A model generated the notes under the pieces. The model worked only from the letters and a program-made list of their open reading frames with translations. It made no database searches and was not told the DNA's origin. A stretch of 34,430 nucleotides of DNA, from NCBI GenBank assembly GCA_013297655.1, contig JAAFHV010000039.1:13575-48004 (forward strand), read 5' to 3'. The position numbers and the translations under genes were made by a program. Positions within the stretch are counted from its first letter, which is position 1. Each line of letters opens with the position of its first letter. Shown in pieces: positions 7,018-31,410 of the stretch. Source of the DNA: Myxococcales bacterium (lineage in GTDB: Bacteria; Myxococcota_A; Polyangia; Polyangiales; Polyangiaceae).

Positions 7018-8283
7018 ATGACGGACTTTGCCACGGACGCTGAACGCGCGTCCGAGCTCATCTTCGACTGGAACGAGGTCAACCGTAAGGGGCGCATCAT
7101 CCCGAAGAACGCCACGTTCTTCGACGAGACGCTGCGCGATGGCCTCCAGAATCCGTCGGTGAAAGACCCTGGGATCGAGCACAAGCTCGAGATTTTGCAC
7201 CTCATCGACGACCTCGGCATCCACGTCGCCGACATCGGCCTCCCCGGCAGCTCGCCGCGCGCCTACGAAGACGTGACGCGCCTCTGCAAGGAGGTCGTCG
7301 ACTGCAAGATGAAGGTGAAGATCGCGTGCGCCGGTCGCACGGTGGTCTCCGACATCACGCCGATGATCGACATCTCGCAGAAGGTGGGCATTCCCATCGA
7401 GGTGTATGCCTTCATCGGCTCGAGCCCGATTCGCCAATATGCGGAGTCGTGGGATCTCGACCTCCTCGTGAAGCGCAGCTCGGAGGCGATCGACGTCGCG
7501 GTCAAGAACGGCCTCGAGGTCGCTTACGTCACGGAGGACACCACCCGCTCGCGCCCGGAGGTGCTCACCGCGCTCTTCCGCGCTGCCATCGATCACGGCG
7601 CGAAGCGACTCTGCCTCTCCGACACCGTGGGACACGCCACTCCGGACGGCGTGCGCAACCTGGTGCAGTTCACGAAGAGCGTAGTCGCCGGCACCGGCGC
7701 CGAGATTGGCATCGACTGGCACGGCCACAACGACCGCGGATTTGCCCTCGAGAACGCGATCTGGGCCCTCGAGTTCGGCGCCGATCGGGTGCACGCGACC
7801 GGTCTCGGGATCGGCGAGCGGGTGGGCAACGCGCAGATGGAGCTGTTCCTCCTGAACATGAAGCTCCTCGGTCAGCTCGATCAAGATCTCACGAAGCTGC
7901 TCGAGTACTGCGAAGCCGTCGCGCGGGCGGTGGGTTGGCAGGTGCCGATCAACTACCCTCTCGTCGGCCGCGACGCGTTCCGCACCGCCACCGGAGTCCA
8001 CGCCGCCGCGATCATCAAAGCGATGGCGAAGGGCGACACCTGGCTCGCGGACCGAATTTATTCGGGAGTACCGGCCGGCATGTTCGGGCGCAAACAGGAA
8101 ATTTGCATTGGATTCATGAGCGGCGCCTCCAACGTGAACTTCTATTTGAAGGAGCGCGGAATCCCCACGAGCGACGCCCTCGTCTCGGAGATTCTCCGCG
8201 CCGCCAAAGAGAAGGACCACATCCTCACCGAGACCGAGGTCCTCTCCGTCGTCGATCGTCACCGCGCCGCCGGCAACGCCTGA
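7018..8283 (+). CDS. 2-Isopropylmalate/homocitrate synthase family enzyme (DRE-TIM metallolyase)
   Basis: This belongs to the family that condenses acetyl-CoA with a 2-oxo acid (LeuA, homocitrate and citramalate synthases). The family signature FFDETLRDGLQ gives catalytic Arg40 and metal ligand Asp41. The second metal-binding motif, H235-G-H237, lies in DWHGHNDRG, followed by the glycine-rich GLGIGERVGNAQ. At 421 residues it has the TIM barrel and a short helical subdomain but no room for the leucine-binding regulatory domain of full-length LeuA, so it is either feedback-insensitive or uses another 2-oxo acid. The HMG-CoA-lyase-like phrase DGLQN is also present, but the overall layout fits the synthases. 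I leave the symbol blank because the substrate cannot be read from sequence. Confidence 0.88.
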   Translation: MTDFATDAERASELIFDWNEVNRKGRIIPKNATFFDETLRDGLQNPSVKDPGIEHKLEILHLIDDLGIHVADIGLPGSSPRAYEDVTRLCKEVVDCKMKVKIACAGRTVVSDITPMIDISQKVGIPIEVYAFIGSSPIRQYAESWDLDLLVKRSSEAIDVAVKNGLEVAYVTEDTTRSRPEVLTALFRAAIDHGAKRLCLSDTVGHATPDGVRNLVQFTKSVVAGTGAEIGIDWHGHNDRGFALENAIWALEFGADRVHATGLGIGERVGNAQMELFLLNMKLLGQLDQDLTKLLEYCEAVARAVGWQVPINYPLVGRDAFRTATGVHAAAIIKAMAKGDTWLADRIYSGVPAGMFGRKQEICIGFMSGASNVNFYLKERGIPTSDALVSEILRAAKEKDHILTETEVLSVVDRHRAAGNA

Positions 8284-9290: not shown

Positions 9291-10140
9291 TCAAGTGCGC
9301 TCGATGGTGAACGAGAGCTGGGTGGACATACCGGGCTCGAGCATGAGGAGGCGAGCTCCGGTGCGAAGCGCGTTGCCAGGGGCGGTCCACGGCTCGACGC
9401 ATACGTAGTCCTTCCCGCGCACCGTCCAGACGACCCACAGGCTCATCGGCGGTGAGGCGGTGAGCTTCAACGTGCCGTCTGGCCATGTGGTCCTCGAGGT
9501 GGAGATCGACCTCGTCCCGCGTGAGGTCGAGGTCGACAGCGACGCGCGCCTTGGTCACGTTGTCGAAGGCGTGTGTCGCCTTCGTGCCGAGCACGACCGC
9601 GCCCTTGTCGGCCTGCGCGATCGCGAAGTACGGGTGGAATCCAGCCCCGAACGGCATCGCGTCGCCGCCGCCGCCGGGTCGCGACGTGTTCTCGATCCGT
9701 AGGTCGACGCCGAACGTGTCGCCGCGCACGGAGTATATGTAATCTGCACGAAAATCCCACGGGTACATCGCGCGGGTCCGCTCGTTCGAGACGAGGGTGA
9801 GGGTCGCTTCGGCGCGCTCGGTGGTGGAGCGGCGCGTGACCTGCCAGGGCTCGTTGCGGGCGAACCCGTGTTGCTTGAGCGCGTACGAGACGCCGCCGTG
9901 CTCGTACTGGTCACCTTCGAGCTTCCCGGGTTGCGGGAAGAGGACCGGGTTTCCGCCGCGCACGTTCTTGGTGGGATCGCGGAGCGTGCTCTCGTCGAGA
10001 TAGAAGGTCTCTTTTCCTGCGAGCACGAGCCTCGTCGCGATTCCTCCGCGCGCAGGAGCGAGCACGAGGCGGCTCCCGGTGCTGGTGTCGCAGAGCTCGA
10101 GCGTCTCGAGGGCGTCGTCGCGGTCTTCGACTGTGAACAT
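9291..10140 (-). pseudogene. Aldose 1-epimerase-like gene with a frameshift
   Basis: Family members interconvert alpha and beta anomers of sugars or hexose 6-phosphates. The first ~215 residues from ATG 10140 read well, including GGNPVLFPQPGKL, KQHGFARNEPW and GFHPYF, all typical of this family. After HLEDH the reading frame becomes arginine/histidine-rich nonsense that stops at 9286. Reading from about 9486 in another minus frame restores the expected family ending (WPDGTLKL, then VVWTVRGKDYVCVEPWTAPGN) and stops at 9291. One extra base or two missing bases near 9480-9490 would explain this. It is either a recent inactivating mutation or a sequencing error. The ATG at 10140 is preferred over an upstream start that adds only low-quality sequence. 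Confidence 0.8.
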
Positions 10141-10257
10141 GACACCGACGCTACTCGGTTCTCCTGCCCGCACTCCCCAGAAAAGCCGAGCGCGCGCCGG
10201 TGAGGGCGCGCGCCGGAGGAGAGATGTGGCCTGATGGCGAGCGAGCGCCGCGGACCT

Positions 10258-16043: not shown

Positions 16044-16991
16044 TCAGCCGCCGCGGCGATCGAGCTTCGTCGCGAGATCGTCGAGCCACGCGAGGATCGG
16101 AGCCCGGTCGGCGTAGGTTGGAATGGTGAGACGGGTCTCTTCGAGGAGCCGCGCGAGCTTGGCGCGAGCGAGCGTCTCCCCGAGGGCGTGCGCGGCGTTG
16201 GGGCGGCCGAGGATCGCGTCGCGCCCCGGGGTTTTGTCCGCGGGGTGGCCCGCGGCGACGTCGAGGAGGTCGTCCGCGGTTTGGTAGGCGAGGCCGATGT
16301 GCTGACCGAACGCGCGGAAATCTTCCGCCCCTCGCCCGCTCGCCAGGGCCCCGAGGCAGGCCGCTGCCTCGAAGAGGGCGCCGGTTTTTGCGCGGTGGTA
16401 GCGCTCGAGGTCGACGCTCGGCTCGGACTCCCACGCTTGGCCCGCGACGAGACCGCGCGCGCCGCCGAGGGCACGCGCGAGGAGCTTCGTGGCGGTGACG
16501 ACCCGCTCCGGCGCGAGCGTGGCCGTGCGCGCGATCGCCTCGAACGAAGCCACGATGAGCCCGTCGCCGACGAGGACCGCGGTCGCCACTCCGTAGGCCG
16601 CGTGAATCGACGGCCGCCCGCGGCGGGTGGTCGCGTCGTCGAACGAGGGGAGATCGTCGTGGACGAGCGACGCCGCGTGGGAGAGCTCGAGCGCGACGCC
16701 ATAGGCCCGCGCGAGGGCAGCGCTGGGCTCGCCATCGTCCGTGTCCGTCTCTTCCCTGCCTAATGTGGCTGCCGCGACGACGCGGCAAAGCGCGGGGCGA
16801 ACGCGGTGGCCACCTGCGAGGAGCGCCATCCGTGAGGCTTCACGGAGCCGAGGGGGGGTCTCCCAGGGCGGGAAGAGCTCGTCGAACGTCGACGAGAGCT
16901 CTGCCTCGAAGACAGCGGTCGCCTCCCGGCTGCCGAGGTCGCGCGCGGTTTCACGGATGAGGTTCGTGGCGGATCGGGCCGGAGGCGGCAT
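16044..16991 (-). CDS. crtE: Geranylgeranyl diphosphate synthase (polyprenyl synthetase)
   Basis: This enzyme condenses IPP with an allylic diphosphate to make GGPP, the precursor of phytoene. From ATG 16991 it has 315 residues. The motifs GGHRVRP (60-66), first aspartate-rich motif HDDLPSFDD (Asp112, Asp113, Asp118) and second aspartate-rich motif DDLLD (240-244) are all present and bind the Mg-diphosphates. A TTG at 17009 and a GTG at 16997 are possible earlier starts, but the ATG is simplest. The gene is divergent from crtD across only 58 bp that contain a sequence matching the presumed CarH operator, so transcription is probably repressed in the dark. Confidence 0.92.
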   Translation of the reverse strand: MPPPARSATNLIRETARDLGSREATAVFEAELSSTFDELFPPWETPPRLREASRMALLAGGHRVRPALCRVVAAATLGREETDTDDGEPSAALARAYGVALELSHAASLVHDDLPSFDDATTRRGRPSIHAAYGVATAVLVGDGLIVASFEAIARTATLAPERVVTATKLLARALGGARGLVAGQAWESEPSVDLERYHRAKTGALFEAAACLGALASGRGAEDFRAFGQHIGLAYQTADDLLDVAAGHPADKTPGRDAILGRPNAAHALGETLARAKLARLLEETRLTIPTYADRAPILAWLDDLATKLDRRGG

Positions 16992-16994
16992 GCA

Positions 16995-17016
16995 CACAAC
17001 TTTATGCAAACCATGG
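16995..17016. promoter_or_regulatory. Predicted CarH operator between crtE and crtD
   Basis: Two adjacent 11-bp units, CACAACTTTAT (16995-17005) and GCAAACCATGG (17006-17016), align without gaps with the two units upstream of carH. The second matches ACAAACCTTGT at 8 of 11 positions and the first matches ATAAACCTTAT at 7 of 11. The shared core is TTATRCAAACCWTG. It lies in the 58-bp gap between the divergent crtE and crtD starts, so one site could control both. Confidence 0.6.
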
Positions 17017-17049
17017 ACAAGCGCAACCCGGGAGCACTACGTTTCTGGC

Positions 17050-18573
17050 ATGGCAGCGTCGGTCGTCGTGGTCGGAGGTGGCGTCGGCGGGCTCGTGGCC
17101 GCGGTCGATCTCGCGGTGGGAGGCCTCCAGGTGACGCTCCTCGAGCGGCACGCGACGGTGGGCGGCAAGATGCGCGCGGTCGCGGTGGGGCAGAGCTTCG
17201 TCGACTCCGGGCCCACCGTGCTCACGATGCGCGACGTTCTGGTCGATCTCTTCGCCGACAGCGGCGCGAACCTCGACGACTACGTGCCGATGCGCTCACT
17301 CGACGTGATCGCGCGCCATGTCTTCGCCGACGGCTCGCGGCTCGACCTGTTCGCCGACGAGCGCGAGACGGAGCGCGCGATCGCCGACTTCGCGGGCAAG
17401 GCCGAGCTCGACCGATATCGTGCCTTCCGTGCGTACGCGAAGGGGATCCTGGCCGTCGCGGAGGCGCCGTTCATCCGCGCGGAGAAGCCCACGCTCGGCT
17501 CGCTCCTCGGCCGCGTGATGGACACGGGCCTCTTCGCGCTCGCGCGGGTGGACGGGCATCGCACGATGGCGAAGGCGATCGCGTCGCATCTCCGCGATCC
17601 GCGCCTCGTCATGCTCTACGAACGTTATGCGACGTACTGCGGGGGCTCGCCCTACGAGTGCCCGGCGACCTTGAACCTCGTGTCCGCGGTGGAGGCGGAG
17701 GGGGTGAGCGTCGTGACCGGCGGCATGCAGCGACTCGCCGAGGGCCTCGAGAGGCGCGCGCGCGAGCTCGGCGTGGTGGTGCGCACGCATGCCCACGTAG
17801 CTTCGATCGAGGAGAAAAATGGGCGCGCGGTGGGGGCGGTGCTCACCTCGGGCGAGGTGGTCCGCGCCGACGCGGTCGTCCTCAACACCGACACGATCGC
17901 GCTCGGCGCCGGGGCGCTCGGCTCCGCGGACATGGGGCTCGACGCGACGTCGCCGAAGGACCGCTCGTTCTCGGCGCTGACGTATGCGGTGGTGGCGCGG
18001 CCCTCCGGGCTCGAGACCGTCGCGCACAACGTCTTCTTTTCGGACGACTACGTGGCCGAGATGCGCGACCTCGTGCGCGACGCCCGTGTTCCGCGGAGCC
18101 CATCGGTCTACGTGTGCGACCAGGGGCCGGCGGTGGAGCTGCCCGACGAAGCGCGGAAATATTTCATCATCGTCAACGCGCCGCCGACCGGGGATCGGCC
18201 CGCGGCGTGGTCCGAAGAGGAGATCTCGAGATGCGAATCCGTGACGTTCGAAACCCTGTCTCGCCTCGGGCTCCGGCTCGCGCGCGAGGCGACAGTAACG
18301 ACGACGCCGGTCGATTTCGAGCGGCTCTTTCCGCGCACGGGGGGAGCTCTCTATGGTCGCCGGCCGACGGGACCGCTGTCGTTCTTCCAGCGATCGGGGG
18401 CGCGGAGCGCGATGCGAGGCCTCTACCTCGCGGGGGGGAGCGTGCACCCGGGACCAGGCGTGCCGATGGCGGCGCGGAGCGGGCGCTTCGCGGCGCGAGC
18501 GATCCTCGCGGACCTCGCCTCGATCGACCGATCCTCGCGGGTGGCTATCAGTGGCTCTACCTCGACGGGGTGA
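17050..18573 (+). CDS. crtD: Hydroxycarotenoid 3,4-desaturase (CrtD-type, CrtI superfamily)
   Basis: A 507-residue FAD-dependent carotenoid desaturase. It has the N-terminal dinucleotide fold VVVVGGGVGGLVAA, the ERHATVGGKMR segment and DSGPTVLTMR, phrases that distinguish CrtD (acting on 1-hydroxylated acyclic ends) from phytoene desaturase CrtI. The C-terminal FAD-contact region GLYLAGGSVHPGPGVPMA is intact. Together with CrtC it would give 1-hydroxy-3,4-didehydro ends, as in myxobacterial carotenoids. ATG 17050 is the first start after the control region; longer open frames upstream run antisense through crtE. The C-terminus overlaps crtC. It cannot be excluded that it also does the work of the missing CrtI, but its motifs do not favour that. 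Confidence 0.9.
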   Translation: MAASVVVVGGGVGGLVAAVDLAVGGLQVTLLERHATVGGKMRAVAVGQSFVDSGPTVLTMRDVLVDLFADSGANLDDYVPMRSLDVIARHVFADGSRLDLFADERETERAIADFAGKAELDRYRAFRAYAKGILAVAEAPFIRAEKPTLGSLLGRVMDTGLFALARVDGHRTMAKAIASHLRDPRLVMLYERYATYCGGSPYECPATLNLVSAVEAEGVSVVTGGMQRLAEGLERRARELGVVVRTHAHVASIEEKNGRAVGAVLTSGEVVRADAVVLNTDTIALGAGALGSADMGLDATSPKDRSFSALTYAVVARPSGLETVAHNVFFSDDYVAEMRDLVRDARVPRSPSVYVCDQGPAVELPDEARKYFIIVNAPPTGDRPAAWSEEEISRCESVTFETLSRLGLRLAREATVTTTPVDFERLFPRTGGALYGRRPTGPLSFFQRSGARSAMRGLYLAGGSVHPGPGVPMAARSGRFAARAILADLASIDRSSRVAISGSTSTG

Positions 18574-19457
18574 GCGACGACGGCGCGACGTCGATCGTGA
18601 TCATCGGCCTCGTGGGGAACCCGTTCTCGCCCGCGTACGCACGCGCGCGGGCGGCGGGCTCCGGGGTCGCCGACGCGCTCGGCTTTTCGTCGCTCAACGT
18701 CGCGATCCGCGGGAGCCGCGATCGTGTGTGGTCGCTTCGGGAGCGCGCCCTCGGCCCCCTCGATCGGAGCGCCGACGCCCTCGTGCTCGGCGCGAGCGTG
18801 GTGCATTGGAGCGCCGATCGCCTGGAAATCAGCATCGACGAGCGCACGACGCCGATCCTCGGGATCGGGGCGCGGCCGGTGCGTGGCAAGGTCGTGTTTC
18901 GTCCCTCGGGGCTCACCGAGCGCTCGTACGTCCTCGACGAGCACGGTCGCCATGTGTGGTGGCCCGTCGCCCCACGTGGCCGCATCGAGGTGCGCCTCGA
19001 CGAGCCCGCGCTGCGGTTCGAGGGCGCCGGTTACCACGACGCGAACGCCGGGGACGAGCCTGTCGAGCGCGGCTTCTCGGACTGGACGTGGTCGCGTGGT
19101 CACGTGCCGCACGGCGACACCGTGGTCGTCTACGAGACGCACGGAGCGGGCCCCCGCGGCGCGAGCATCACGCACGCCTTCCGCTGGAACGGCCGCGAGA
19201 GCACGAGCTTCGTCGCGCCGCGCGCGCGCCCCTTCCGGCCGAGCCTCTGGGGTATCCCACGCGCCGCCCACGCCGACCCCGGTCACGCGCCGAGACTGGT
19301 GAAAATGCTGGAAGATACGCCCTTTTACGCGCGAAGCTTGGTGGATACACGTATCGACGGGACCTCGCTCCAGGTGGTCCACGAGAGCCTCGCCGCGCAG
19401 AGGCTCACCAAGCCCTGGGTGCGGCACTTGCTCGAGTACAAGATGGGGAAGGGATGA
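18570..19457 (+). CDS. crtC: Carotenoid 1,2-hydratase
   Basis: CrtC adds water to the 1,2 double bond of acyclic carotenoid ends. The region TSIVIIGLVGNPFSPAYARA, then FSSLNVAIRG, and later FSDWTWSR are typical of the family. The earliest start in frame is GTG 18570, which overlaps the crtD stop as GTGA and gives 295 residues. Yet the eleven codons before it read GGYQWLYLDG in frame, matching the conserved GGYxWWYxDA start seen in many CrtC proteins, and no ATG, GTG or TTG lies upstream in that frame for a long way. The protein is thus either a short form starting at the GTG or has lost a start through an indel. The end GKG is followed by crtZ after 37 bp. Confidence 0.85.
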   Translation: MSDDGATSIVIIGLVGNPFSPAYARARAAGSGVADALGFSSLNVAIRGSRDRVWSLRERALGPLDRSADALVLGASVVHWSADRLEISIDERTTPILGIGARPVRGKVVFRPSGLTERSYVLDEHGRHVWWPVAPRGRIEVRLDEPALRFEGAGYHDANAGDEPVERGFSDWTWSRGHVPHGDTVVVYETHGAGPRGASITHAFRWNGRESTSFVAPRARPFRPSLWGIPRAAHADPGHAPRLVKMLEDTPFYARSLVDTRIDGTSLQVVHESLAAQRLTKPWVRHLLEYKMGKG

Positions 19458-19494
19458 GCATGCCGTCCGCGAACGTCGCCGAGCGAGGAGCGTC

Positions 19495-20064
19495 GTGAGC
19501 GCCGTCGTGGTGTGGCTCCCCACGATGCTCGTGGTCGCGGTCGTGATGGACGTGTGGGCTGCGCTCCTGCACGGGCTCGTGTGGCACGGGGTGCTCTACC
19601 GCGTGCATGCGAGCCATCACCGCGCCCGCACCGGCCGCTTCGAGGCGAACGACGCGCTCTCCTTCTTGCACGCTCCTATCGCGATCGTGCTCGTGCTGTA
19701 CGGCTGTCGTGCCGCTCCGGGCGTCACGCGTGAGCTCGCGTTCGGCGTCGGCCTAGGGATGACGCTGTTCGGGCTCGCCTACACGCTGGTCCACGACGGT
19801 CTCGTGCACAAACGTATCCCGGTGCGGTTCCTCGCGCGCTCGCGTTTCCTAAGGAAGATCGCGCGCGCGCACCGGATTCATCACTCGAACGCGCGCGCGG
19901 GGGTGCCGTTCGGGCTCTTCAGCGGGCCGCTCGAGATGTGGCTTCGAGAAAGGCTCGCGACGCGACCGTACGTGCCCAGCGCAGCGACGCCGACGGGCCG
20001 AGGCCGGACGCGACCTTCGTCCACACCGCCGGGTGACGAACCGAGGTCCGCCGCAGGAACGTGA
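19495..20064 (+). CDS. crtZ: Beta-carotene hydroxylase (CrtZ-type, di-iron)
   Basis: This membrane enzyme hydroxylates the 3-position of a carotenoid ring. It has the four histidine clusters of CrtZ: H26-x4-H31, H38-x2-H41-H42, HDGLVH and AHRIHHS, between hydrophobic segments. GTG 19495 is preceded by GAGGAG. The conserved core ends near GVPFGLF (about residue 142); the last ~45 residues are Arg/Pro/Thr-rich and unlike the family. That tail is encoded by bases shared, on the other strand, with the end of the cyclase gene, so it may be read-through after loss of an earlier stop. It closes the crtD-crtC-crtZ operon. A ring hydroxylase implies that a cyclase works in the same pathway. Confidence 0.9.
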   Translation: MSAVVVWLPTMLVVAVVMDVWAALLHGLVWHGVLYRVHASHHRARTGRFEANDALSFLHAPIAIVLVLYGCRAAPGVTRELAFGVGLGMTLFGLAYTLVHDGLVHKRIPVRFLARSRFLRKIARAHRIHHSNARAGVPFGLFSGPLEMWLRERLATRPYVPSAATPTGRGRTRPSSTPPGDEPRSAAGT

Positions 20065-21369
20065 TGAGCTCTCGGGTGCTCGCCGTGTCGCGGAGCACGG
20101 CGGCGTAGGCCTCGTTCCCGGCGCCGTGGAGCGACGAAAACGCCGCGTCGAGGAGCGCGTTGAGCTCGTTCCCGTGGAACGTACCGGACGCCATCAGCGC
20201 GCTGAGGGCGCCCGTGAACGCGTGCACGGGCCGGTCGTCGACCACCGGATCGGGGAGCTCGTCTCCTCCGAGGATGGCGGCGCCGAACGCGTCGCCGACA
20301 GATCGATCGAGCGCAAGGTGGCCCCGAAGCCACAGTAGGTGAGCGGAGAATGCCGAGCGGCGGCGTCGCCGACGAGCACCACGCGTGGATGAGGCGAGCG
20401 TGGCGGCGGCACGAGCCGCGACCAGCCCGGGATGTAACCGAACGTGGGCCGAACGAGCTCGAAATCGCCTGTCTTGTAGCGAGGGAGCGCCTCGAAGAAG
20501 CGCGCGTAAAGGTCGACGAGGGTGCCCTCCGTGGTGGGCCGCGCGTAGTGGAAGAGGTAGACGGTGGTCTCGCCGGAGCGACCGGGGAACGCTTCCCACA
20601 CGTGCTGCTTGCCGTCGACGATGCCCTCGGTCGTCGCCAAAATCTCGCCGACGGTGGGGTCGATCGCGCCGGTTCCAGAGCCGACGGTGAGGCCGCGCAC
20701 CACCCCGCCGACGGTGGGACACACCAGATCGGCGGTGGCGGAAGGGCTCGACGCGCCGCGGGCGTCGATCGCGTAGCGAGCCGTGATTTCTCGAGCAGAA
20801 TGGTTTCGATCGACGAACGCGAGGCGCACGCCGCCGGATCCGCCGGTGAGCGAGACGAGCGTGTGATGATCGTGGAGCTCGACGCCGAGGTTCGAGGCGA
20901 GGGCACGCGCGCGGCCGAGGAGCGAGCCTGCGTCGACGGCGCGATCGAGCACGCCTTGGACTGGGTACGAGCCGCCGCCAGCGAAGCTGCAGGTGCCGTG
21001 GCGGTAGCGGGCGACGATGGTCTCTTCGAGCTCGGGCGCGGAGAGAAGACCGGCGGTGACCAGGGCGTCGAGCTCCGCGCGGCTCGCGTTCCACTCGCGG
21101 TGCGCTTCGCCGACGAGGGCACGATCGAACACCGCGACCCTCAGCCCGCGCTTCGCGAGGACCGGCGCGAGGAGGAGCGAGAGCCCGCCCCCGACGATCG
21201 CGACGTCGACGTCGACGGTGTCTCCGTGGCGTGGACCTTCGCCGACGCGTGGGTCCGCCCTGCGCGGCGCAGCGCGAACCGCGTCGAGGTGGTCGAGGCG
21301 TTCGAGGAGAACGGGGCCGCCCGCTTCGGCGACCTTCGCTCGCGCGCGATCACGAGCCGCGGCGCTCAT
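19919..21369 (-). pseudogene. CruA/CruP-type FAD-dependent lycopene cyclase, frameshifted
   Basis: The N-terminal ~355 residues from ATG 21369 match the CruA/CruP family of lycopene cyclases: a dinucleotide-binding start (VDVAIVGGG), REWNASRAEL (family REWNISRxEL), WEAFPGRSGETTVYLFHY, and VLVGDAAARHSPLTYCGFGATLR. Just after this, near 20301-20310, the frame runs into Ser/Thr/Arg-rich nonsense that stops at 20194. A different minus frame continues sensibly from DRSVGDAFGAAIL to a stop at 19919. One or four missing bases would restore it; the site contains the tandem CGATCGAT. The start overlaps the crtB stop (ATGA). Without cyclase, carotenoid ends would stay acyclic. A sequencing error is possible, so the gene may be intact in the cell. 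Confidence 0.8.
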
Positions 21370-22301
21370 GGTGCGCTCGAAGCGGCGACGAGATCGCGCG
21401 CCGGGGCGAGGGGAGGGAGCGCGAGATCGTGGGGCCGCGGGCCTGCGAACCGCGCTGTCATCGCGCGTGAGATGAGCCAGGCCTTTCGCGGCCCCGAGAC
21501 GCGCGCGCGCTGGGTGACCGAGTCGTGATGGTTCTCTGCGATCGCGCGCCCGATGTCGGAGTAGACGAGGCGCGCGGCGGCGATCGCGGGGCGGCACGCG
21601 CGGGGGAGCTCGGGTATCCCCGCGTCGGCGTTGCGGTAAATGCCGTCGGCGCGGGCGAGCAGGCGCGCGACGACGGCGCCGAGCTTGGTGTCGAACGAAG
21701 GCGCGGCGAGGAACGCGTCGGGATCGAGCCCGGCGTCCTTCATCCAGATGCGTGGAAGATACAAGCGACCTCGGCGTGCGTCCTCGCCCACGTCGCGGGC
21801 GATGTTGGTGAGCTGCATCGCGATGCCGAGATCGCAGGCGCGCGCGAGCACGTTTGCATCGCGAGAGCCCATGAGCGAGGTCATCGCCACGCCAACCGAG
21901 CCGGCCACCCGCGTCGCGTACGCGAGCAAGTCGTGCTCCGTCTCGTAGCTCCTGTTTTCGGCGTCCCAAGCGAAGCCTTCGAGAAGCGCGTCGAGCGGAG
22001 CGCGGGGGAGGCCTTCGTGGCGAACGAGCGCCGAGAGCGCACGATCGACCGCAAATGGCCCTGGATCTGCCGCGTAGATGCGGTCGAGGCGAGCGCGAAG
22101 GAGGGCCACGTTGCCCGTCACGTCCGAGCCCCCGTCGTCGACGAGATCGTCGGCCACGCGACAGAAGGCATAGAGCACGGTCGCGCCGCGGCGCACGCGC
22201 GATGGCAGGAGGAGCGACGCAGCCGAGAAGCTCTTCGAGCCCTTCGAGAGCAGCACTTCGCATGCCGCCAGGTCGGCGGGCTCTAGGCCGTCAGGAAGCA
22301 C
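21366..22301 (-). CDS. crtB: Phytoene synthase
   Basis: Joins two GGPP molecules into phytoene. From GTG 22301 it has 311 residues, with the substrate-Mg-binding motifs DDLVD (51-55) in YAFCRVADDLVDD and DVGED in NIARDVGEDARRGRLYLP, and the early SKSFSAASLLLP typical of CrtB. The reading frame stays open upstream, but that sequence is the crtI remnant read in another frame. GTG 22301 begins the conserved part and overlaps the last 11 bases of the remnant. The ATGA overlap with the cyclase gene couples their translation. Expression should come from the promoter within the presumed CarH operator upstream of the remnant. Confidence 0.93.
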   Translation of the reverse strand: MLPDGLEPADLAACEVLLSKGSKSFSAASLLLPSRVRRGATVLYAFCRVADDLVDDGGSDVTGNVALLRARLDRIYAADPGPFAVDRALSALVRHEGLPRAPLDALLEGFAWDAENRSYETEHDLLAYATRVAGSVGVAMTSLMGSRDANVLARACDLGIAMQLTNIARDVGEDARRGRLYLPRIWMKDAGLDPDAFLAAPSFDTKLGAVVARLLARADGIYRNADAGIPELPRACRPAIAAARLVYSDIGRAIAENHHDSVTQRARVSGPRKAWLISRAMTARFAGPRPHDLALPPLAPARDLVAASSAP

Positions 22302-22540: not shown

Positions 22541-23515
22541 ATGGCCCCCCCGTCCCGCGTCCCGTCCGAGCCGCTGCTCCGTATTCACGCGGTGGCCGAT
22601 CTCACCGGCGTGCCGGAGCCCACCCTCCGCGCGTGGGAGCGTCGTTACGGGATCCCGTCGCCGGTGCGAACCGCCTCGGGGTATCGGCTCTACGGTCCGC
22701 GCGAGATCGGCGAAGTCCGAGAGATGCGGCGCTTGTGCGAGGGCGGCTTCGCGGCTGCCGAAGCGGCAAACCTCGTGCGCGCGAAGGCCGAAGCAGCGGT
22801 CGCCATCGCAGAGCCCGCGGCCGCACCTCCGGCGCCGACGTTTCCGACCGATGCGTACGCGGCGGCGGTCGAAGCGCTCCTCGACGCGGTCGCGCGCTTC
22901 GACGACGACGCCCTCGACGAAACGCTCCGGCGCGTGATGTTCCTCGGCACGCCGCTCATGGTGCTCGAGCGTGTGCTCCGGCCCGCGCTCCACTCCATCG
23001 GCACGATGTGGGAGAAGGGGGAAATCTCGGTCGCGCAGGAGCACCTCGCGTCGCATCGCATCGGCACGTTCATGCGCGAGTCGCTGCGGTTCTCGCCCGG
23101 GGCGAACGCGCAAGACCGTGTGCTCCTCGCGTGCTTCGCCGACGACGACCACGAGCTCGGTATGGTGGGGGTCGCGATGCGGCTCTCGGAGTGGGGGCTC
23201 CGTCCCGTCATCCTCGGCGCGCGCACGCCGCCCTCCGCCATCGCCGCGGCGGTGAACGCGCTGTCGCCTCGTCTCGTCGCGCTCTCGATCACGATCGCCC
23301 CTCCCGAAGAGCGCCTCCGCGAGCTCTGCCGCGACTACGCACACGCGTGCGGCTCCGTACCTTGGCTCGTCGGCGGAGCGGCGGCGAGCAGCGTCGCAGC
23401 TCACGTCGAGGGCAACGGCGGTGTCCTCGTGCCTCCGTCGACCGACGCGCTGAAAGCGATGGTCCTTCGTTTGATGGACGGCGGCCCGAAGCTGCAGGGC
23501 CCGAAGAGCAAGTGA
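22541..23515 (+). CDS. carH: CarH-type B12-dependent light-sensing repressor
   Basis: A 324-residue MerR-family regulator. The N-terminal winged helix has TLRAWERRYGIPSPVRTASGYRLY (residues 28-51, quoted in part). The helical cobalamin-cap domain holds the W-x9-EH motif diagnostic of CarH (Trp157, Glu167, His168). The Rossmann-type cobalamin domain has DxHxxG (Asp202, His204, Gly207), where His204 would be the lower cobalt ligand. In known CarH proteins adenosylcobalamin drives tetramer formation and DNA binding in the dark, and light breaks the Co-C bond and releases the operator. The residue after Trp157 is Glu, where Thermus CarH, as I recall, has the His that binds cobalt after illumination. 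Divergent from the crtB operon; likely targets are the two 11-bp repeat sites. Confidence 0.93.
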   Translation: MAPPSRVPSEPLLRIHAVADLTGVPEPTLRAWERRYGIPSPVRTASGYRLYGPREIGEVREMRRLCEGGFAAAEAANLVRAKAEAAVAIAEPAAAPPAPTFPTDAYAAAVEALLDAVARFDDDALDETLRRVMFLGTPLMVLERVLRPALHSIGTMWEKGEISVAQEHLASHRIGTFMRESLRFSPGANAQDRVLLACFADDDHELGMVGVAMRLSEWGLRPVILGARTPPSAIAAAVNALSPRLVALSITIAPPEERLRELCRDYAHACGSVPWLVGGAAASSVAAHVEGNGGVLVPPSTDALKAMVLRLMDGGPKLQGPKSK

Positions 23516-28976: not shown

Positions 28977-29195
28977 AGCTCCGCGCGACGATCAAAATTC
29001 GGCGCGCACGGACCTCTTCGTTTTTGTTCGTGAAACCATTGTCGCGAACCGTGCGTTGGCCCTACTGCCCGCCAGTGCCTCGTGCTCCCGTCGTGGAGCG
29101 AGGTAGCTGCTGAATCTAGTCGCGGGGGGGCGTGCCTGACCGGCAAGGAATTGCTCGGTCGAGCCGAACACGCCCAAAGCGGGCCGAAGGAAGTC

Positions 29196-29561
29196 ATGCT
29201 CAACGCGAACCGTTTGGCTCAGATCGTCGCGCGCGGAAATCCAGACGTGATCGGCCTCCTCGTCGTCGACGCCGACGGCAAGGTGCACGCCTCCGATTCG
29301 ACTTCTCCCGAGGTCATGCGCGCGGCGATCGCGATGGCGGTGCCGCTCCGGGACTTGATTGATCGCACGGCGGCGGAGCTCGGATGTGGAGAGCACTCCG
29401 CGACCTTGGTCGAGGGCCGCGAGGCGTCGTTCGCGATCGCCGACGTCGACGGGTTCCGGTGCGTGTTGGTGATCGGCGCGAGCGGCGCGGCGCCCGGATC
29501 GCTGCGCGCGGATAGCCTTTGGTTGGCCGCTCGCCTGCGTGACGAAGGCGGTGCTTCGTGA
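29196..29561 (+). CDS. Small Roadblock/LC7-like protein
   Basis: A 121-residue single-domain protein with the Roadblock/LC7 layout: an N-terminal helix (LNANRLAQIVAR), the hallmark strand-turn-strand VIGLLVVDADGKVHAS, a central helix (PEVMRAAIAMAVPLRDLIDRTAAELG), two strands (EASFAIADVDGFRCVLVIG) and a closing helix. Proteins of this fold, such as MglB of myxobacteria, bind and regulate small Ras-like GTPases in polarity and motility. ATG 29196 is chosen because GAAGGA lies five bases upstream; longer in-frame starts add poor sequence. The stop overlaps the next start as GTGA, so it is made together with the membrane and PYP-domain proteins. The assignment is by pattern, without a search. Confidence 0.7.
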   Translation: MLNANRLAQIVARGNPDVIGLLVVDADGKVHASDSTSPEVMRAAIAMAVPLRDLIDRTAAELGCGEHSATLVEGREASFAIADVDGFRCVLVIGASGAAPGSLRADSLWLAARLRDEGGAS

Positions 29562-30661
29562 TCGATTGGTTTCTCATCGCGTCCGCGTCCGCGTCGGTCG
29601 TCTCCGGCGCCATCGCGTGGACCGTCGCCGGGCGTCGCGCACACGCCCGTGCCGAGCGGGCATGTGACGCCAAGCTCGCCGTCGCGACGTCGGCGCGCGA
29701 AGAGGCCGACCGACGTGCGCTCACGCTCGATCACGAGGTCGCTTACTGGAGGGCCACCTCCCTCGCGCCACGCGAGCTCGCGCCGGCCGCGGTCTTTCAC
29801 GATCGCATGGCGGCCTCCGAGCACGAGGTGCTCGTCGCGCTGCTCCGCGGCCTCTGCCTCGTCGACACGGCGGTCATCGCCGACGCGACGGGCTTGTCGC
29901 GCACGCGGGAGGGCGAGGGCGAAGCTTCGTCGCTCGCGGCGCTTGCGGCCCCATTCGACCGGTTACAGAGCGCACTCGAGAGGCTCGGTCTCGCCGTCGC
30001 GGAGGCTCGCCTCGAGACATTGGATACGACCCACGTCACGATCCGGCCGCTCGGGGGGAGGGCGCGAGGGACGTTCCTCGTCGCGAAGGGCTCGAGTCTG
30101 CCCGTGAATCCGCTGGCGGTCGACGCGGTGGCGCACTCCGCTGCCGGCAAGACGCTCCCGACTCCGCTGCCGCGCCTCGTCGCGGGCTGGCGTGGGAGCT
30201 CGGACAAACGACGCGCGAGCAACGGCGGGCCCATCGAGTTCTTCGACGACCTCGAGCGCGAGATGGATCGCGCCAACCTGCGCGCGGCGGTGCTCGGCGA
30301 CGTCGCGGCGGTCTATTTTTCGGCTGCGGAGGACGGTCCCTCTGCCGACGTGAGAGCGTCCGCGTTCATGGCGATGAACGCGTTCCAAGAGCGTGCCGCG
30401 CAGACACTGCGCGGCGCGGGGATGGCGCGCGTCGATCTCGTCGTCGCCTCGGGCGGGGTGCTCCGCTGGTCGGCCCTCCCGGGCGCGCGAAACCTCGGGC
30501 TCGTGCTGCTCGCGGACGACGGAGCGACGTCGCCTGCGTGGATGGAACGGCTGAGCGGGCGTCTGCGCCGGGGCCTCGACGCCTCCGCAGCTCGTGCGTC
30601 CTCTTCGGGGCCCGCGCTCGAACGAGCGACCGCGAGCAGCGTAGGAAGGAGCGCCCGGTGA
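29558..30661 (+). CDS. Membrane-anchored protein with two probable Roadblock-like regions
   Basis: A 367-residue protein starting at GTG 29558, coupled to the gene before it. A single N-terminal hydrophobic segment (WFLIASASASVVSGAIAWTVAG, residues 4-25, quoted in part) is followed by a helical, coiled-coil-like region to about residue 70. Two regions resemble the Roadblock/LC7 pattern: about 85-190 (LVDTAVIADATGLSRTREG, then RARGTFLVAKGSSLPV) and about 225-340 (ANLRAAVLGDVAAVYFSA, then NLGLVLLADDG). Both face the cytoplasm if the N-terminus is the anchor. It may be the docking platform that links the small Roadblock protein and the PYP-domain protein to the membrane. The next gene starts by GTGA overlap. 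Confidence 0.65.
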   Translation: MIDWFLIASASASVVSGAIAWTVAGRRAHARAERACDAKLAVATSAREEADRRALTLDHEVAYWRATSLAPRELAPAAVFHDRMAASEHEVLVALLRGLCLVDTAVIADATGLSRTREGEGEASSLAALAAPFDRLQSALERLGLAVAEARLETLDTTHVTIRPLGGRARGTFLVAKGSSLPVNPLAVDAVAHSAAGKTLPTPLPRLVAGWRGSSDKRRASNGGPIEFFDDLEREMDRANLRAAVLGDVAAVYFSAAEDGPSADVRASAFMAMNAFQERAAQTLRGAGMARVDLVVASGGVLRWSALPGARNLGLVLLADDGATSPAWMERLSGRLRRGLDASAARASSSGPALERATASSVGRSAR

Positions 30662-31410
30662 AGCAGCCCGAATCGAAGGCCTCCCCGCGCCGCACCCTCC
30701 CGGCGCCGAGCGAGCCGCTCGACGTGAACGCGATCGTCGCCGAGCGGGACCGCTTGCGCTTCGAGATCGGGAGCTTGCACGCCGAGCTCGGTCACCTGCG
30801 AAGCGAGCTCGCGCGGCTCCGCGACGAGCGACGACACGGCTCCGACCTCGCCATGGTCGACGCCGAGCTCCCCGAATCCGGAGACCGCTTGCCGCTTCCC
30901 TCCGCGCTCCCGTACCTGCCGAGCGTCACACGCGAGGTCGCGCGGCCGAAGGGGCTGATGGGTGCACTCTACACACCCGACACCCAGCCCACCGGCGCGC
31001 CGAAGCCGTACTCGCCGCCCCCCGTGGCAGAGGGCTTCGACTTCGGCGCGGTGTCGCGGCTCTCCCCCGAAGAGCTCGATACGCTCCCCTATGGGCTCAT
31101 CTGCCTCGACGGGCAGGGGCGTGTCGTCCACTACAACGACGTCGAGTCGCGCATGGCGCGGTTGCCGAAGTCGCGGGTGATTGGACGAAACTTCTTCGTC
31201 GACGTCGCTCCTTGCGCTCGCGTGCGGGAGTTCGAGGGGCAGTTTCGTGAATTGGTCCGCGACCCCGGGCGCGTGCGCGTCCGTTCGTTCGACTTCGTCT
31301 TTCGGTTCGAGCACTCGGAGCAGCACGTCACGATCGTGATCACCCCGGCGCGAACGCGCGGTCTCTACAACTTGGCGATCTTGAGGCGCTCCGTCGTCGC
31401 TCACCCGTGA
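30658..31410 (+). CDS. Coiled-coil protein with a photoactive yellow protein (PYP) domain
   Basis: From GTG 30658 (AGGAAGGA eight bases upstream) the protein has 250 residues: a coiled coil at about 24-58, a Pro-rich linker, and a PAS domain of the PYP type from about 141 to the end. Compared with Halorhodospira PYP, the chromophore cysteine is present in DVAPC (Cys186 = Cys69), as are the chromophore-bonding Tyr159 (= Tyr42) and Glu163 (= Glu46), with no gap between them (27 residues from Tyr to Cys in both). VIGRNFF also matches VIGKNFF. Thr50 and Arg52 are replaced by Ala and Leu, so absorption and kinetics may differ. PYP uses p-coumaric acid; no ligase or ammonia-lyase gene for it is in the window. 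It likely senses blue light and signals through its coiled coil. Confidence 0.85.
   Translation: MKQPESKASPRRTLPAPSEPLDVNAIVAERDRLRFEIGSLHAELGHLRSELARLRDERRHGSDLAMVDAELPESGDRLPLPSALPYLPSVTREVARPKGLMGALYTPDTQPTGAPKPYSPPPVAEGFDFGAVSRLSPEELDTLPYGLICLDGQGRVVHYNDVESRMARLPKSRVIGRNFFVDVAPCARVREFEGQFRELVRDPGRVRVRSFDFVFRFEHSEQHVTIVITPARTRGLYNLAILRRSVVAHP

Follow-up and report, generated by a model that had tools for sequence, protein, structure and literature searches.

A conserved gene unit of Myxococcota joins a PYP-family protein to two proteins of Roadblock or predicted Roadblock fold

In Myxococcota a known photoreceptor family is encoded with a conserved set of partner proteins that is not described in the open-access literature searched. 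The unit consists of three genes, encoding a small Roadblock/LC7 protein (gene A), a predicted membrane protein with two Roadblock domains (gene B) and a coiled coil fused to a PYP domain (gene C). It was analysed here in the window, a stretch of 34,430 nucleotides from a Myxococcales bacterium (assembly GCA_013297655.1, contig JAAFHV010000039.1, positions 13,575 to 48,004). PYP itself probably arose in this phylum. The preliminary description of this DNA had proposed a survey of the operon in other Myxococcota, and the unit proved to be conserved: searches of 379 genomes of the phylum with gene C and with gene B, together with order-level sampling that added cassettes in the genomes G437, G483, G416 and G382, gave a total of 18 complete A-B-C units in 16 myxococcotal genomes belonging to seven families.

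The coordinates of the unit are collected in Table 1. The three reading frames are as previously claimed and are joined by GTGA stop/start overlaps, at 29558-29561 between A and B and at 30658-30661 between B and C. An alternative upstream GTG for gene A is present at 29082 with the frame open, and is not favoured by the alignment of orthologues.

Table 1. Features of the A-B-C unit, in positions of the window.
Feature	Position	Strand	Basis or remark
Gene A: free-standing Roadblock/LC7 protein, 121 aa	29196..29561	+	PF03259, PDB profile, AF2 and Foldseek
Gene B: 367 aa; N-terminal hydrophobic segment, helical stem, two predicted Roadblock domains	29558..30661	+	GTG start overlaps A stop
Gene C: coiled coil and PYP protein, 250 aa	30658..31410	+	GTG start overlaps B stop
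Gene B, predicted transmembrane segment, ~residues 3-24, followed by Arg-Arg	29564..29629	+	Hydropathy only
Gene B, predicted Roadblock domain 1, residues 85-198	29810..30151	+	VIA-align Z 10.1 to 9jue_F, 9.5 to MglB 6h5b_C
Gene B, predicted Roadblock domain 2, residues 222-347	30221..30598	+	VIA-align Z 9.1 to MglB 1j3w_A; also LAMTOR and Rag CTD
Gene C, coiled coil, residues 33-60; hydrophobics at 33, 37, 40, 44, 47, 51, 54	30754..30837	+	Sequence; heptad score 0.82
Gene C, PYP domain, residues 133-238, with Tyr159, Glu163 and Cys186	31054..31371	+	TIGR02373; phmmer to 1mzu and Halorhodospira PYP
Gene C, Cys186 codon, equivalent of PYP Cys69, putative chromophore thioester site	31213..31215	+	Register from phmmer and orthologue alignment

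Gene A has the Roadblock/LC7 fold. The protein of the window scores just below the Pfam cut-off for PF03259 (E=1.9e-4, 21.5 bits against 23), and the family is matched by 12 of 14 gene A orthologues, with a best E of 4.1e-11. A profile built from the 14 proteins retrieves Roadblock structures from the PDB with E=1.8e-17 and MglB with E of about 3e-4, and the AF2 model (pLDDT 90) aligns to Roadblock/MglB structures in Foldseek with a TM of ~0.8 (about 0.83). Family profile, PDB profile and fold match hence all confirm the small Roadblock/LC7-like protein that had been proposed. Gene A should not be called MglB, since both the MglB-type C-terminal helix and an equivalent of Asn37 are missing. 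With its 121 residues the protein stops once the last core helix is complete, as against 160 amino acids in the MglB of the same genome, and none of the 14 aligned gene A proteins has asparagine at the Asn37 position, which is occupied by D, E, S, K or R instead. At the position of Arg98 the gene A alignment shifts by one residue. In MglB the C-terminal helix contacts MglA and is tied to GEF activity, and Asn37 and Arg98 are GAP contacts to Switch I (PMC11016934).

Gene B of the window, searched alone, matched no Pfam family, and its Roadblock call therefore needed fold comparison. PF03259 was matched by 3 of 13 gene B orthologues, and the top two PDB matches of a gene B profile were both Roadblock structures, aligned to different regions with weak E values of 0.15 and 0.59. 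The structural model, of middling confidence (pLDDT 78), has a long helix at its N-terminus along with two alpha/beta domains, and the best structural matches of these two domains were all Roadblock, MglB, LAMTOR or Rag structures (Z 10.1 for the first and 9.1 for the second). On this model gene B carries two Roadblock folds, so that the two Roadblock-like regions of the preliminary description are borne out by fold comparison while the sequence profiles are weak. Failure to find a Roadblock match by HMM or fold for both upstream proteins had been named beforehand as grounds for abandoning the idea, and it did not occur. The hydrophobic N-terminal segment reaches a KD19 of 1.68 in the window and of 1.3-2.8 at the same place in 12 other orthologues. 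From hydropathy and the positive-inside rule only, it is predicted to be a membrane anchor that leaves the C-terminal part of the protein in the cytoplasm.

Gene C is, by its sequence, a member of the PYP family and would carry p-coumarate on Cys186. TIGR02373 matches residues 133-237 with E=6.7e-23, and its score of 81 bits stays below the equivalog cut-off, which is set at 143 bits; this model is reported to match just a small subset of PYP homologues (PMC9664959). The closest relatives in the PDB, by phmmer, are Ppr and the Halorhodospira PYP. Tyr159, Glu163 and Cys186 equal Tyr42, Glu46 and Cys69 plus exactly 117 in a register free of gaps, just as had been noted before, and the three residues are invariant in 14 gene C orthologues and in all 20 cassette-type PYP domains. 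Ser164, Ala167 and Leu169 also agree with the family consensus Ser47, Ala50 and Leu52, which was drawn from 984 PYPs (PMC12826048). A loss of key PYP residues would weigh against a photoreceptor and is rejected, as Glu46 and Cys69 are kept in 54 of 54 myxococcotal PYP domains; Phe42 is found in four of them. Inability of the PYP domain to bind p-coumaric acid, the other ground for abandoning the idea that had been named beforehand, did not show up either as far as the residues tell. The fusion to a coiled coil was likewise recognised correctly, with hydrophobic residues at a strict 3-4 spacing over residues 33-54, and a heptad segment comparable to that of the window is present in 18 of 18 cassette C proteins, although the shuffle p-values of these segments are optimistic because the best segment was picked first.

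Small-GTPase machinery sets cell polarity in myxobacteria, and the composition of the unit suggests that a process under GTPase control receives a blue-light signal. What the tools show is the gene linkage, the folds and the chromophore residues; complex formation, docking, the light response and the GTPase target are what we infer. Gene C would bind p-coumarate on Cys186 and change shape in blue light, and its coiled coil would dock on the helical stem of B. The N-terminal helix would hold B in the inner membrane with its Roadblock domains in the cytoplasm, where free A may pair with them to form an MglB- or Ragulator-like dimer platform. This A/B platform would bind a Ras-like GTPase of the MglA family whose gene lies elsewhere, and light may then alter the recruitment or activity of the GTPase at the membrane, or the handling of MglB by the platform. 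As an outcome, light would bias polarity, gliding or another GTPase-controlled process. To a Roadblock platform of this kind, tethered to the membrane, gated by blue light and acting on an MglA-family GTPase from outside the unit, we assign a probability of about 0.5. That the photoreceptor acts directly on the Roadblock platform, and through it on a bacterial Ras-like GTPase at the membrane, which would constitute a light-to-GTPase route in Myxococcota, is put forward tentatively and at somewhat less than an even chance.

No GTPase gene is located in or beside the A-B-C unit in the gene maps of the window and of the cassette loci, and a GTPase partner encoded in or next to the cassette is rejected on these maps. 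In the window's genome a canonical mglB-mglA locus is found on a different contig, and a query with the MglA protein identified six MglA-like G domains in this genome, MglA and five more. The PF00025 search, which returned only MglA and a translation factor, and the PF08477 search, which returned nothing, were consequently not sensitive enough. One MglA-like G domain, contained in a longer frame, is found on the window's own contig ~4 kb before the window (G000:C323:8903-9382); with ~33 kb between it and the cassette, we do not regard the two as linked. The 17 genomes tested, with an intact or a degenerate cassette, all have at least one MglA-type GTPase. Because GTPases of this type are probably widespread in Myxococcota, their presence is a necessary condition rather than evidence of a link.

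The unit has no GTPase, and A has neither the C-terminal helix of MglB nor an equivalent of Asn37, which would also be in keeping with A and B forming a membrane scaffold without direct GTPase contact, to which light recruits MglB or an unrelated effector. A precedent for such a scaffold would be MglC, a Roadblock member of the polarity module with MglB as its binding partner (PMC7949163). Against it stand the two halves of B, which both match the Roadblock folds of MglB, LAMTOR and Rag best. Roadblock folds mostly serve GTPases, and no cassette genome tested is without an MglA-type GTPase, although these are probably common in the phylum; we consider a scaffold of this kind rather unlikely.

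The supply of chromophore bears on whether gene C responds to light at all. TAL and acyl-CoA ligase are the enzyme types that make the PYP chromophore. The window's genome, which is 97.6% complete, has a single PF00221 gene, with Ser-His and Glu-Asp-His-Val motifs and thus of the histidine ammonia-lyase type, and no recognisable tyrosine ammonia-lyase was found in it by PF00221 search and motif typing. The typing of PF00221 genes as HAL or TAL follows an alignment and what we take to be the selectivity residues, and leaves out G054, G301 and G175. In the genome G136 a lyase that is TAL-like by the same rule (Tyr-His-Leu and Asn-Gln-Asp motifs) overlaps an acyl-CoA ligase gene, and the pair adjoins the cassette in divergent orientation; neither protein is above a specific NCBIfam cut-off. 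The best match to the G136 ligase in the window's genome is an ordinary acyl-CoA ligase (39%). TAL-like and acyl-CoA ligase genes were also observed in G151 (L065; G151:C1:2898294-2901769) beside a second, non-cassette PYP, with the cassette elsewhere in that genome. Some genomes of the families f30 and f39 have tandem PF00221 genes (L060, L063, L069 and L070), the second copy of which shows Ala-Ala-Gly and not Ala-Ser-Gly at the expected MIO triad.

A PYP domain that reports p-coumarate or another aromatic thioester from the surroundings, or that works as an apoprotein, would be a chemical sensor, and would agree with the lack of a TAL-like PF00221 gene in the window's genome and in most cassette genomes with a readable lyase, as well as with the ordinary nature of the ligase that best matches that of G136 in the window's genome. 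We nevertheless regard a chemical sensor as quite improbable, given that the chromophore-binding and consensus pocket residues are kept and that a TAL-like and ligase pair does adjoin the G136 cassette. Absence of TAL nearby is moreover usual, as only 5% of known pyp operons carry it (PMC12826048), and is accordingly a weak argument against a photoreceptor here.

The conservation of the unit was followed from both ends. PYP-like matches to gene C were obtained in 53 of the 379 genomes, the strongest of which all carry A and B, except for a fragment in G256. When the loci were scanned with profiles, all three genes turned up at each of the first 14 cassette-type loci retrieved, the window among them. 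Some 20 other PYP loci, many represented with flanks of only 1.5 kb, showed no neighbouring A or B. Gene B as query gave 15 loci in 13 of the 379 genomes, 15 of 15 at cassette loci, with two degenerate loci as the exceptions, and a contig scan with a single-protein query returned only one relative. In a tree computed from 54 PYP domains, a branch with support 96/87 sets the 20 of cassette type apart from the rest, and the label changes once. Of the 17 collinear loci, 14 have frames of B and C that share either 4 bases or 1, and the flanking genes vary between loci. Overlaps of 4 bases between adjoining genes are frequent in bacteria and could be had by three unrelated chance neighbours, but recurrence at 18 loci with different surroundings places the arrangement far beyond chance, all 15 B homologues are at the unit and the rearranged G160 locus (gene order C-A-X-B) still keeps all three genes, so that this explanation is refuted and practically without probability.

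An extra ORF, X, is also located between A and B in G236 and G382. Gene X (L038 ~7058-7683; L037 ~9524-10165), inside the cassettes of family f4 genomes, is small and encodes a protein with a hydrophobic segment at its N-terminus and a stretch rich in proline; it has no Pfam match. The degenerate cassette of G256 (L033 7240-10028) retains a B fragment of 110 amino acids and a C whose reading frame is broken; this locus also has a V4R-like fragment, encoded on the other strand, and an adjoining second PYP gene. G449 has a lone cassette-type PYP (L135 2033-2626) from which A, B and its own coiled coil are all missing, a joint loss hinting that the coiled coil serves the A/B partners.

Among known systems, the PYP of Halorhodospira halophila and Ppr of Rhodospirillum centenum resemble gene C in the Tyr42/Glu46/Cys69 register and the consensus pocket, but in gene C a coiled coil precedes the PYP domain, and the other two genes of the unit encode Roadblock proteins. 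The partners of PYP named in the main texts of two surveys are kinases, GGDEF/EAL, MCP (chemoreceptor), phytochrome, V4R, REC and BLUF (PMC9664959, PMC12826048). "Roadblock" is mentioned in neither of these main texts, of 2022 and 2025 respectively, nor is "GTPase" in that of 2025, which agrees with the earlier remark that no system of this composition had been described. Searches of the main texts of open-access papers likewise gave nothing relevant on PYP with Roadblock, or on Roadblock with blue-light photoreceptors.

MglB and MglC of the Myxococcus polarity module share the Roadblock/LC7 fold with A and, on the model, with both domains of B. In contrast to them, the cassette is not encoded with mglA, A is without the C-terminal helix and Asn37 equivalent, and B has a predicted membrane segment in one chain with its two Roadblock domains. 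Likeness to Ragulator (LAMTOR), with its membrane-tethered Roadblock dimers, is by analogy only, LAMTOR and the Rag CTD being among the structural matches of B; the cassette is bacterial, with a single-chain tether bearing two Roadblock domains and a photoreceptor as partner. The actinobacterial conservons (CvnA-D), in the account available from PMC13343842, are likewise operons of a sensor protein and a Roadblock protein. The gene maps of the window and the cassettes, however, contain no CvnD-type small GTPase, no histidine-kinase-like sensor of the CvnA type and no CvnC, and have PYP instead.

Further observations relate to light in these genomes. The window contains a carotenoid cluster at 16044-22256, with a CrtD/CrtI-type desaturase (17050-18573), a hydroxylase-like gene (19495-20064) and a phytoene synthase-like gene (21366-22256), followed at 22541-23515 by a regulator with MerR and B12-binding parts that resembles CarH (113 bits, cut-off 400). 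Cluster and regulator are a candidate second light-responsive system ~6 kb from the PYP unit. Elsewhere, and in several genomes, a PYP fused to a V4R-like domain adjoins, and often overlaps, a serine/threonine protein kinase gene (L048 8544-10657, in the window's own genome on contig C100; L047, L049 and L138). This pairing is absent from the PYP operon table of 2025 (PMC12826048).

How PYP hands on its signal is considered an important gap in the field (PMC12826048). The unit described here names two conserved partner proteins of PYP, which in the sampled genomes go one-to-one with a single PYP clade, and by which the question becomes testable through co-purification and gene deletion. If the GTPase link is true, the unit would let blue light act on the machinery that sets polarity in gliding myxobacteria, and may offer a natural tool for the control of Roadblock/GTPase modules by light.
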